A DNA stretch of 64,000 nucleotides from positions 124,001-188,000 of the forward strand of contig JAJZBM010000003.1 in the NCBI GenBank assembly GCA_021798915.1, read 5' to 3'. The notes below the pieces were generated by a model. That model ran no database searches. It had not been told where the DNA came from and worked only from the letters and a program-made list of their open reading frames with translations. Positions 31,265 through 36,315 of the stretch are shown here, in pieces (within the stretch, counting starts at the first letter, position 1; every line of letters begins with the position of its first letter). Both the position numbers and the translations under genes were made by a program. The DNA is from Pseudomonadota bacterium. Lineage in GTDB: Bacteria > Pseudomonadota > Alphaproteobacteria > Acetobacterales > Acetobacteraceae.

Positions 31265-32167
31265 ATGAGCGAGACTTCCGACCGGATCGGTGCGGCGCAG
31301 GAACAGGCGCGGATTCTCGCCCACGCGCTTCCCTTCCTCCGCCGCTACGCCGGGGCGACGATCGTCGTCAAATATGGCGGCCACGCCATGGGCGAGGACG
31401 CGCTGGCGCAGCAATTCGGCGGTGATATCGCGCTCCTCAAACAGGTTGGGGTCAACCCGGTGGTGGTCCATGGCGGCGGGCCGCAGATCAACGCCATGCT
31501 CAAGCGCCTTGCCATCCAATCGACCTTCGTCCACGGCCTCCGGGTCACCGACGCGGCGATGGTCGAAGTGGTGGAAATGGTGCTGGCCGGGACGGTGAAC
31601 AAACAGGTCGCGAGCCTGATCAACGCCGCCGGCGCGCTCGCGGTCGGCATTTCCGGGAAGGATGGCGGCCTGATCCGGGCGCGGAAGCTCACCCGCACCG
31701 AGCGCGACCCGGAAAGCCATATCGAGCGCGCCCTCGATCTCGGCTTCGTCGGCGAGCCGGAGCGGATCGATGTTCGCGTCATCCACGCCCTGACCGGCGC
31801 CGGGCTGATTCCGGTGATCGCGCCGGTCGGGATCGGCGGCGATGGCGCGACCTACAACATCAACGCCGATACCGCCGCCGGCGCCATCGCCGCCGCCCTC
31901 GGCGCGACCCGTCTTCTGATGCTGACCGACGTCCCCGGCGTGCTCGACGCCGAGCGCCGGACGATCCCGGAACTGACCGTCGCCCAAGTTGCGGATGCGG
32001 TCGCGGCAGGACGCATCACCGGCGGCATGATCCCGAAAGTCGAAACCTGCGCCAGCGCTGTCACTGGCGGGGTTCAGGCGGCGGTGATCCTCGACGGCCG
32101 CGTCCCCCACGCCGCCCTCCTCGAACTATTCACCGAGGGCGGCATCGGCACCCTGATCAAGCCTTGA
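31265..32167 (+). CDS. argB: Acetylglutamate kinase
   Basis: [36 protein letters not shown]. Confidence 0.95.
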
Positions 32168-32188
32168 GCGCAGCGTCAAGCGCCTTCG

Positions 32189-32929
32189 TCAGCGGGCGAA
32201 GCCGCCGCGATATTCCTTGAGAATGAGCCGATCCGGGATTGGCTCTTCTCGGCGGCTGCCGAAAAAGAACACGCCGCCAGCAGCGTCGATATGCGCCGGG
32301 CCGCTGAGCCAGCGATCGAGTTTTCGTAAACCGGGCGTGAAGAGCAAGCCCAAGGCGCGCCCCAGATTGCGCCCGTAACGCCCGGTAGGAATGGATTCCA
32401 GAAACGAGCAGAGAATCCAGGCGGCGACGGTTCCAACACCGAGGGCAGGCCCTGCCTCAATCGCATCGAAACGGCGAAACAGCCGGCGATGCCCCAAAGG
32501 AGTGAAGCGCGTGAAATCATAGGCGCCCATATGCACCGGCTGCAGAAATGGCGTTATTGCATAGACATAACCGTTTGGCTGGAGCACGCGCCAGAACTCC
32601 TCGACGCAACGTGGCGGAGAAGCGACGTGCTCAAGCACCGCGATGGCGATGACCAGATCAAACGCGCCGTCAGGGAAAGGCAGGTCATGCGCATCTGCAA
32701 TGATTTCGACACCAGGCCCGAACGCAACATCCATTGCCGTGATTTGATCTTCCGCTCCTCCATGTCCGCGCCCGCCGGAACCAACCACCAGGATGCGCGG
32801 ATGCGGGCATTCCTTACGGACAATTTCGATCGCCTCCATGTCGCCGAGATGCCGAAGGCTTGAAGATGCCTCGGCGAAATTTTTGAAAATTTTTCGAGCT
32901 AACCGTCGCCCCCCCCCACCCTGTCCCAA
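32189..32929 (-). CDS. Class I SAM-dependent methyltransferase (3' part of a gene split by a frameshift)
   Basis: PRILVVGSGGRGHGG, FDLVIAIAVLEHVASPPRCVEEFWRVLQPNG; apparent in-frame ATG at 32929 lies inside the upstream ORF. Confidence 0.82.
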   Translation of the reverse strand: MGQGGGGRRLARKIFKNFAEASSSLRHLGDMEAIEIVRKECPHPRILVVGSGGRGHGGAEDQITAMDVAFGPGVEIIADAHDLPFPDGAFDLVIAIAVLEHVASPPRCVEEFWRVLQPNGYVYAITPFLQPVHMGAYDFTRFTPLGHRRLFRRFDAIEAGPALGVGTVAAWILCSFLESIPTGRYGRNLGRALGLLFTPGLRKLDRWLSGPAHIDAAGGVFFFGSRREEPIPDRLILKEYRGGFAR

Positions 32930-33159
32930 TCACGTGCATAACTCGCGCCTTCATAGCCAAGCGTCTCGACATAATCGGCGACGGCGAAAACGGAATTATC
33001 GTCATTGATCAGGATCGGAACACCGCGCACGAGCGGAAAAACGCCACCGCAGCTTCCGCATTCCAAGGAATCTTCCCGTTTAAAAAGCACGCCGCGATCT
33101 TTCGGACAGACGAGTGTCGCGGAGAAGCCATTACCGTAGTCAGTGGCGTTTTGTGTCAT
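32899..33159 (-). CDS. Trm112-like zinc-binding N-terminal domain (5' part of the split methyltransferase gene)
   Basis: LVCPKDRGVLFKREDSLECGSCGGVFPLVRGVPILINDDNSVF; terminates just after the G9 tract. Confidence 0.82.
   Translation of the reverse strand: MTQNATDYGNGFSATLVCPKDRGVLFKREDSLECGSCGGVFPLVRGVPILINDDNSVFAVADYVETLGYEGASYARDWDRVGGGDG
32909..32917 (-). other. 9-nt homopolymer (G9 on coding strand) at the frameshift between the two ORFs
   Basis: GTCGCCCCCCCCCACC on + strand; 10 G (or 7 G) would join the 33159 and 32189 ORFs in frame. Confidence 0.85.
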
Positions 33160-33217
33160 ATCTATCTCAGGTGCATGGTTTGTCGGGGAGATACGTTATT
33201 CCAGACGAACGAGACAC

Positions 33218-34366
33218 TCATCCGGCCCGCGGGACGATGGCGGCACGCAGCGTCGCCGCGACGCGGGCGACGTCGTCATCGCTGAGATCGGGATGGATGG
33301 GCAAAGCGAGGATGCGCCGCGCGACATCTTCGGCGACCGGCAGCGCTGCGCCGTCGTGATGGGCGCGATAGGCGGGCTGATGATGGAGCGGCTTCGGGTA
33401 ATAGATCGCGCTCGCGATCCCGGCCGCGCGTAGCGCCGCTTGCGCCGCCTCCCGCCGCGCGCCGTCGGCGAACAGGACGGCATAGACCGCCCAGACGCTG
33501 TCGCTCGCCGGAACCCGCGCCGGTGTCTCGACGATCCCGGCGAGGGCCCGATCATAGAGGTCGGCGAGCCGCGCGCGGGCGGCGATCTCGGCCGGAAAAT
33601 GGTCGAGCTTGGTGAGCAGCACGGCGGCCTGGAGCGTGTCGAGACGACCGTTCATGCCGGTGCGCAACACCTCATAGCGGGTCGTGCCCTCACCATGGCT
33701 GCGGAGGCTGCGATAAAGTTCGGCGCGTTCGGCGCTCTCGGTGAACAACGCGCCGCCATCGCCATAGCCGCCGAGGGGTTTGGAGGGAAAGAAGCTGATC
33801 GCGGTCGCCATCGCGGCGCGGCCGAGCCGGGTGCCAGCGAGGCGGGCGCCGAAGCTCTGCGCGCAATCATCGAGGGTGAAGAGATCGTGGCGCGCGGCGA
33901 TGGCGGCCAGACGCGGCCAATCCGCCGGCTGGCCGAAGAGATCGACGCCGATCAGGGCCCGCGGCCGGAGCTTTCCCGCCGCCTGGACGGTTTTGATGCG
34001 GGCCTCGAACGCCGCCGGATCGATCTGGAAGCTGCGCGCGTCGATATCGACGAAAACCGGGGTCGCGCCGAGCACCAACACCACCTCGGCGGTCGCGGTA
34101 TAGGTGAAGGCGGGGAGAAACACCGCATCCCCCGGCCCGATTCCTTCCGCCATCAGGGCGATCTGTAAGGCATCGGTGCCGGAACTGACCGCGACGCACT
34201 GGGCTGCGCCGCAGAATTGCGCGAGCCGCGTCTCCAGCTCGCCAACCTCGGGGCCGAGAATGAACTGGCAATGCGCCAGCACCGCCTCGATGCGGGCCCG
34301 CAAGCCGGGGCCGAGGCGCTTCTGCTGCGCCTTGAGGTCGAGAAAGGCGATCGGATGATCGGTCAT
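33218..34366 (-). CDS. DegT/DnrJ/EryC1/StrS aminotransferase (WbpE-like sugar-nucleotide aminotransferase)
   Basis: FLDLKAQQ, FILGPEVGELE, SSGTDALQIALMA, DDCAQSFGA, SFFPSKPLGGYGDGGALFT. Confidence 0.92.
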   Translation of the reverse strand: MTDHPIAFLDLKAQQKRLGPGLRARIEAVLAHCQFILGPEVGELETRLAQFCGAAQCVAVSSGTDALQIALMAEGIGPGDAVFLPAFTYTATAEVVLVLGATPVFVDIDARSFQIDPAAFEARIKTVQAAGKLRPRALIGVDLFGQPADWPRLAAIAARHDLFTLDDCAQSFGARLAGTRLGRAAMATAISFFPSKPLGGYGDGGALFTESAERAELYRSLRSHGEGTTRYEVLRTGMNGRLDTLQAAVLLTKLDHFPAEIAARARLADLYDRALAGIVETPARVPASDSVWAVYAVLFADGARREAAQAALRAAGIASAIYYPKPLHHQPAYRAHHDGAALPVAEDVARRILALPIHPDLSDDDVARVAATLRAAIVPRAG

Positions 34367-34380
34367 GAGCCCTCGCGAAA

Positions 34381-36315
34381 TCAGGCGCTCGCGGCGCCGG
34401 CGGCGTTATGGGTGAATTCCGGCACCAGGCGCGAAAGCAGCGCCAGCGCCTGCCCCTCCTGGCCGCGCAGACACGCCCCGGCCAGCTCGTCGAGGGCGCG
34501 GCTGATGATGGCGAGATCGGCGGTGCGCGGGGCGGCCATCAAGAGGCCGGGATAGCGGGTCGGCGTGGGCGGCTCCTGGCCGTGGAATAATTCCTCGAAC
34601 AATTTTTCGCCCGGGCGCAGGCCGGTGAAGCGGATCGCGATATCGGCCTCGGGGCGCAGCCCGGCGAGGCGGATCATCTGGCGCGCGAGATCGACGATCT
34701 TCACCGGCTCGCCCATGTCGAGCACGAAAATACCGCCCGCCGCCGCTTGCGAGACATCCGGCGCGGTGGTGCCGACGACGGCGGCCTGCAACACCAGCCC
34801 GACCGCCTCGCGCACGGTCATGAAATAGCGCCGCATATCGGGATGGGTCACGGTGAGCGGGCCGCCGGCGGCGAGCTGGCGCTGAAACAGCGGCACCACC
34901 GAGCCGGTGCTGCCGAGCACATTACCGAAACGCACGGTGATGCAGCGGAGGCCGCCCGCTTTCTCGCGCCCCGCCTTCTCGCGCCCGGCGAGATCGAGCG
35001 CCTGGCAATACATCTCCGCGAGCCGCTTCGCGGCGCCCATGACACTGGTCGGGTTGACCGCCTTGTCGGTCGAGATCTGCACCATCACCTCGGCGCCAGC
35101 GGCGCGCGCGGCATCGGCGACGTTACGGGTGCCAATGGCGTTGGTGAGCAGCCCTTCGAGCGGATTGGCCTCCACCATCGGCACATGCTTGAGGGCGGCG
35201 GCGTGGCAGACGAGATCGGGGCGGAAACGCTCGCACACGGCGCGGAGCCGCGCGGCGTCGCGGATATCGGCGATCAGGGCGCGGCGCGCCAGCGTCGGAT
35301 GAACCTCCGCGAGTTCGAGATCGATCTGCCAGAGCGCGTATTCGCCGTTATCGAGGAGGCCGATCTCCGCCGGGCCGAACCCGGCCACCTGGCGCGCGAG
35401 TTCGGCGCCGATACTGCCGCCGGCGCCAGTGATGAGCACGCGCCGCCCGGCGATCAGCCGCGCCATGCCGTCGCGATCGAGCGGCACCTGCTTTCTGTTG
35501 AGAATATCCTCGATGGCGATGGGGCGGAGATCGAGCCCGGCCCCGCCCAGGGAGGCAGTGGCGGAGGCGGTGGCGAGGCGCGTTGGGTCTGGGGCGCGGC
35601 GGACGGCGATGCCGGCGCGGTCGGCGCATTCGAGGATCTGGCCGAGGGTCGCGCCGGGCAGATCGGCGGTGACGATCAGAAAGCGCGGCGGGGTCTCCGC
35701 CGCCGCGAGTTTTTCCAAAACACCCGCCGTCTCGGCGATGGTGCCGAGGATCGGCCGTCCCTGAATCCGCCGCCCGGTCTGGCGGGCCGAGGGCGCGAGC
35801 AGGCCGAGCACCCGATAGGAGGCGCCGCGCCCGCGCCCGAGCGCGCGCAGGAACAGATCGGCCCCCTCGCCATCGCCGACCAGAAGCACCGGCACCGCGT
35901 CCCCCATCTCCGCGGCATGGCCATCGCGGCGGTCGCGCCAGAGGCGATAGGCGAGGCGGGGGGATGCGAGCAGAGTGACGAGGACGAGGGCGTGAATGGC
36001 CGGGAAGCTCGCGCTCGGCAGCGCAAGACCGGCGGCGAGGAAGAGCAGCGCATAAAGCCCGGCTCCCACGAGCGCGCTGCCGGCAAGGGCGCGCATGTCA
36101 CCGAGGCCGGCGAAGCGCCAATATTGTGTCGCAAGGCCAAACGGCACCCCGCCGGCGATCAGGGCGACGGCGCCGGCGGCGGCGGCGAAGCCCGAGGCCA
36201 GGGGCTGATCCGGGCGGGCGAGCCAGAAGGCGAGCGGCACGGCGAGCGCGCCGAGCGCGCCGTCGAGCACGACATTGATCAGAAGCCGGGTCAGCGAAGG
36301 ATTACGCGCGGACAT
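34381..36315 (-). CDS. Membrane-anchored nucleoside-diphosphate-sugar 4,6-dehydratase (CapD/WbpM/FlaA1-type)
   Basis: N-terminal TM segments, VLITGAGGSIGAELARQVAGFGPAEIGLLDNGEYALW, CHAAALKHVPMVEANP, VRFGNVLGSTGSVVP. Confidence 0.92.
   Translation of the reverse strand: MSARNPSLTRLLINVVLDGALGALAVPLAFWLARPDQPLASGFAAAAGAVALIAGGVPFGLATQYWRFAGLGDMRALAGSALVGAGLYALLFLAAGLALPSASFPAIHALVLVTLLASPRLAYRLWRDRRDGHAAEMGDAVPVLLVGDGEGADLFLRALGRGRGASYRVLGLLAPSARQTGRRIQGRPILGTIAETAGVLEKLAAAETPPRFLIVTADLPGATLGQILECADRAGIAVRRAPDPTRLATASATASLGGAGLDLRPIAIEDILNRKQVPLDRDGMARLIAGRRVLITGAGGSIGAELARQVAGFGPAEIGLLDNGEYALWQIDLELAEVHPTLARRALIADIRDAARLRAVCERFRPDLVCHAAALKHVPMVEANPLEGLLTNAIGTRNVADAARAAGAEVMVQISTDKAVNPTSVMGAAKRLAEMYCQALDLAGREKAGREKAGGLRCITVRFGNVLGSTGSVVPLFQRQLAAGGPLTVTHPDMRRYFMTVREAVGLVLQAAVVGTTAPDVSQAAAGGIFVLDMGEPVKIVDLARQMIRLAGLRPEADIAIRFTGLRPGEKLFEELFHGQEPPTPTRYPGLLMAAPRTADLAIISRALDELAGACLRGQEGQALALLSRLVPEFTHNAAGAASA

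Follow-up and report, generated by a model that had tools for sequence, protein, structure and literature searches.

A Trm112-like/class I methyltransferase gene with a frame break at a run of nine Gs in an Acetobacteraceae genome

A methyltransferase gene in a genome of the alphaproteobacterial family Acetobacteraceae is split between two reading frames at a run of nine Gs. It lies on the minus strand of the stretch of DNA that was analysed (the window, 64,000 nucleotides). The frame break is real in the sequence as assembled, and its size is one missing nucleotide. The reading that we favour, tentatively, is an ordinary indel at a mutable site, which very recently inactivated a dispensable accessory gene, rather than an evolved switch. 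The evidence comes from a single genome of this species, as assembly sequence.

The two halves of the gene and their homologs

The N-terminal half of the gene is an ORF of 86 aa (32899..33159, minus strand) that starts with ATG and codes for a Trm112-like zinc-ribbon domain. Read from 33159 to 32899, it ends in GTG GGG GGG GGC GAC GGT TAG, with the stop codon just past the run of nine Gs (32909..32917, minus strand). Around the break the minus strand reads GACAGGGT-GGGGGGGGG-CGACGGTTAGCTCG and, in a second rendering across the tract, GACAGGGT-GGGGGGGGG-CGACGGTTAG. The C-terminal half (32189..32917, minus strand) is a class I SAM methyltransferase frame of 242 codons plus a stop, open from the tract to the stop at 32189 with zero internal stops. 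The sequence and the two open frames thus bear out the initial annotation, in which the ORF was described as split at the nine-G tract. Compared with Pfam, the C-terminal half matched Methyltransf_11 (E = 9.8e-15). The N-terminal half by itself was recognised by neither Pfam nor NCBIfam; a profile of the family, searched against the PDB, matched the UPF0434/SCO3027 zinc domains (2kpi, 2js4).

A scan of GTDB genomes for the family returned 35 loci. In Humitalea rosea a single protein of 334 aa spans both halves, with an identity of 46% to the N-terminal half and of 56-57% to the C-terminal half. The closest homologs have 51-60% identity across the methyltransferase half, and one further close homolog is found at a viral-contig locus (L067). 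In 24/24 aligned homologs one ORF spans the junction and links the zinc domain to the methyltransferase. The spacing between two conserved codons that flank the junction is exactly 15 nt (five residues) in every one of these 24 and 14 nt in the window, leaving the G run one nt short. Counted in residues, the interval from an aligned D/E to a conserved R, both included, is seven in all 24 aligned homologs; the exception at the D/E position is the distant row L053, which has R instead. This spacing agrees with the claim, made at the outset, that one added G would fuse the halves. Every full-length family match among 398 family genomes is a continuous ORF through the junction. Strong matches were found in 23 of the 398, and only in this genome does the best match lack the first 68 model positions, with the zinc domain, in frame. 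Homologs encoded as two separate genes, proposed as a check, were not found; every full-length homolog is fused. Both ends of the window gene match single fused proteins, which upholds the view that the halves are one gene, and a Trm112-like domain joined to a class I methyltransferase, described as a known organisation, proved to be the norm of the family. The window has homologous versions of both domains, but in two frames, and this copy is a broken member of the Trm112-like/class I methyltransferase fusion family, which is marked by an N-terminal CP..-C..C zinc domain and a C-terminal SAM methyltransferase within one ORF.

The Pararoseomonas homolog was modelled with AlphaFold (mean pLDDT 86.7, pTM 0.87); in the model, the residues at the tract site follow the zinc domain and precede the first helix of the methyltransferase. 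The state of the rest of the gene was scored at conserved columns, defined as columns kept in at least 90% of homologs, with the halves fused at the amino acid level solely for this scoring. Counting both halves, the window copy violated none of 78 conserved columns, which equals the best intact homolog, and so it retains the conserved residues of the family. This result sets an upper limit of about 1.7% on the neutral divergence accumulated after the break. It suggests that the lesion arose very recently, that it is an artefact, or that the gene is still in use; an intact remainder is equally expected of an error or of a switchable gene.

A homolog in the Acetobacteraceae MAG JOPF016 (L048:2788-3756) departs from the family alignment in its C-terminal third, as after a frameshift. 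A second homolog fragment in this MAG lies on another contig (L057).

Genomic context and origin

Upstream of the methyltransferase gene, 58 bp before its ATG, is a gene for a DegT/DnrJ/EryC1 sugar aminotransferase (33218..34366, minus strand). Beyond it lies a gene for a CapD-type nucleotide-sugar dehydratase (Polysacc_synt_2; 34381..36315, minus strand), which adjoins DegT in congeners too. The other side is bordered by a convergent argB-like gene (31265..32167, plus strand), named by eye from its sequence. The aminotransferase gene was present in 5/5 congeners (81-92% identity), as was argB (87-97%), and the methyltransferase gene in 0/5. In the closest congener, G005, the aminotransferase gene directly adjoins argB; similarity to the window ends at 33244 and restarts at 32167, and the segment absent from G005 is placed, with approximate edges, at 32168..33217. 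In the congener G001 similarity persists to about 33194, and the true left edge of the insertion may therefore be there. The methyltransferase gene has a GC content of 58% and a GC3 of 0.58-0.62, compared to 66-72% and 0.82-0.86 for its neighbours. Absence from the congeners at a conserved locus, together with atypical composition, suggests that the gene is most likely a recent insertion, probably acquired horizontally. Loss of the methyltransferase in all five congeners would be less economical and leaves the composition unexplained.

The CapD-DegT pair is conserved in the genus, with downstream neighbours that vary among the congeners (by eye, an ABC-F ATPase, a CoA-transferase or argB). In other Acetobacteraceae, the neighbours of family members are of the kind found in exopolysaccharide-type clusters, namely GT4 glycosyltransferases, flippases, AsnB and exosortase. 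Neither CapD nor DegT was found near 25 homologs (flanks of up to 3 kb), nor in the Humitalea region. An ancestral CapD-DegT-methyltransferase operon was rejected, since none of these flanks has CapD or DegT and the congener pairs occur without the methyltransferase. The initial annotation had suggested an operon with CapD and the aminotransferase. The genes are indeed same-strand neighbours, but the methyltransferase gene would be a recent insertion next to a pair that exists without it. A glycan or polysaccharide substrate of the methyltransferase is plausible from the gene context of the homologs. The same context makes likely the polysaccharide role contained in the earlier proposal of glycan modification, whereas phase variation of that role is unsupported. 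A promoter scan found no promoter. At another site the genus has the related glycosyltransferase locus, which lacks the methyltransferase. An exopolysaccharide glycosyltransferase in this genome that seemed broken by an internal TGA was rejected as such, since the stop is upstream of the real start.

Explanations for the frame break

Tracts of eight or more Gs are unremarkable per se, with 4 octamer matches in the window compared to 4.6 expected from shuffles. Tracts of at least nine Gs constitute ~0.004% of the genome, and it follows that the coincidence of tract and break is not due to chance. Slippage, in the cell or during sequencing, is the likely cause of the break. Under the recent indel that we favour, an accessory Trm112-like/class I methyltransferase gene of the exopolysaccharide-cluster kind would have been gained recently between the CapD-DegT pair and argB, and slippage in the private G run of its interdomain linker would have deleted one nt. 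Translation would then halt after the zinc domain and the normal two-domain enzyme would not be made. We infer that the deletion is real rather than artefactual and that there was no selection for switching. A sequencing error and a fixed pseudogene had been said to look the same as a switch here, and an artefact and a fixed lesion are still the leading readings.

The main rival, a distinct possibility though not our first choice, is that the tract was undercounted by one and that the gene is intact in the organism. This is consistent with the lack of decay in the remainder of the gene and with the draft state of the assembly (61 contigs). The genome, of 3.09 Mb, contains 14 distinct runs of at least nine. 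Under the GeneTack survey's criteria, the window frameshift counts as a singleton with BLASTP-type validation; the survey authors ascribe such singletons to sequencing errors or recent indels, and the survey expects BLASTP-validated singletons to be mostly sequencing errors (PMC3711429). Also in keeping with an error is an odd strand bias: of the 14 runs of at least nine, 13 read as C on the plus strand of the contig (two-sided p about 0.002, post hoc), with exact 8-mers at about 30:25. This bias could reflect chance or an assembly effect.

What speaks against an undercount is the behaviour of the genome's other 8-10-base G or C tracts, which were surveyed with coding signal required on both sides. 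In the same assembly, all 29 scorable in-gene tracts kept their frame, which is evidence against miscounting of G tracts in general and places the 95% upper bound on the error rate at about 10% per tract. Four apparent frame changes at tracts (L087, L092, L190 and L196) were rejected as gene boundaries upon inspection. Nine-G tracts in frame were found in ligA and the gene for class I lysyl-tRNA synthetase (the L089/L086 set), as well as in those for a FUSC transporter and a DUF374 protein; the tracts at L089 and L086 serve as internal controls for tract stability. The window's own tract fell into the 'noncoding' class of the tract coding test, probably owing to the atypical codon usage of the methyltransferase gene, which fits a foreign origin.

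The initial annotation had put forward the G tract as a slipped-strand switch, which would turn the methyltransferase, and thus glycan methylation, on and off. We regard this as unlikely, and it is just as doubtful that, after horizontal gain, a polysaccharide methyltransferase in this Acetobacteraceae bacterium acquired a poly-G contingency switch de novo. The nine Gs do lie within the coding region at the break, where a change of one nt decides between full length and truncation. The remainder of the gene is intact, and the gene is likely to be glycan-related, like the contingency genes of Campylobacter and Helicobacter. However, the tract is private to this copy. Runs of at least six at the junction were absent in the 24 aligned homologs and runs of at least seven in further family loci, and none of the homologs examined has a G run there. 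Nor was any homolog frameshifted at the junction, and a GeneTack call of phase variation is based on a cluster of five or more shifted homologs with repeats (PMC3711429). Long tracts were also not restricted to surface or glycan genes; housekeeping genes, ligA among them, carry tracts of equal length and stay in frame, which suggests that tract mutability in this genome is not extreme. A mutS gene is present in the genome, and the methyltransferase gene, a newcomer, shows no sign of having been retained from species to species within the genus. The literature that was found contained neither phase variation in Acetobacteraceae nor Trm112-like exopolysaccharide methyltransferases specifically. 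Apart from the presence of the tract and the intactness of the rest of the gene, the data give phase variation no support; the idea is not absurd, given the precedent of a poly-G tract (7 G) in glpK of the high-GC bacterium M. tuberculosis (PMC11898584).

Recoding, in which a -1 shift by the ribosome or slippage during transcription of the run would yield some fused protein, is very improbable. The zero-frame run G GGG GGG could let tRNAs re-pair one base back, and the shift needed is -1, but the folding of the RNA at the site is no more stable than that of shuffled sequences (z = +1.28), on which ground RNA structure was rejected as a recoding signal, and the run is conserved in no homolog. 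Least credible of all is a pair of cooperating separate proteins with the C-terminal half made from an internal start: the earliest start codon in its frame is a TTG upstream of the break (32929), with an ATG in frame farther downstream, but every full-length homolog is fused and the split is unique to this copy.

As it stands, the frameshift affects one copy of an accessory gene gained recently, and events of this kind are common. If tract lengths were mixed in reads, the locus would represent homopolymer phase variation in a group without a literature precedent that we could find, and a true switch would suggest that a glycan gene can turn into a switchable one soon after its acquisition. 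The sister locus, which lacks the methyltransferase gene, provides a clean baseline.

Comparison with known systems

RlmA, the 23S rRNA m1G745 methyltransferase, also has its zinc domain ahead of a class I methyltransferase domain. Its structure (PDB 1p91) was the top Foldseek match by E-value for the homolog model. The likeness is at the level of the generic fold only (TM-scores 0.34-0.51, identity 17-20%) and does not imply an rRNA substrate.

With the slipped-strand glycan genes of Campylobacter, such as Cj1295 (PMC3068675), the window gene shares a G homopolymer in a probably glycan-related coding region. Compared to genes of this type, the window tract is not common to relatives, and equal tracts stand in frame in housekeeping genes. 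The shared features with the 7-G tract of M. tuberculosis glpK are a poly-G frameshift and a high-GC genome; glpK variation is documented across isolates (PMC11898584), whereas the present case is one genome, with mutS.

The closest counterparts are the members of the fusion family, which occurs in Acetobacteraceae and some other Proteobacteria. In H. rosea, a nine-C/G run (L115:3357) lies in the glycosyltransferase gene adjoining the methyltransferase gene, with the ORF open. The homologs of Pararoseomonas indoligenes (L032) and H. rosea (L033) have the same domain order, zinc-domain cysteines, methyltransferase motifs and linker as the window gene. The window copy differs from the family in being one nt short in the linker and, unlike the family, it lies next to CapD/DegT and argB and not in an exopolysaccharide cluster.
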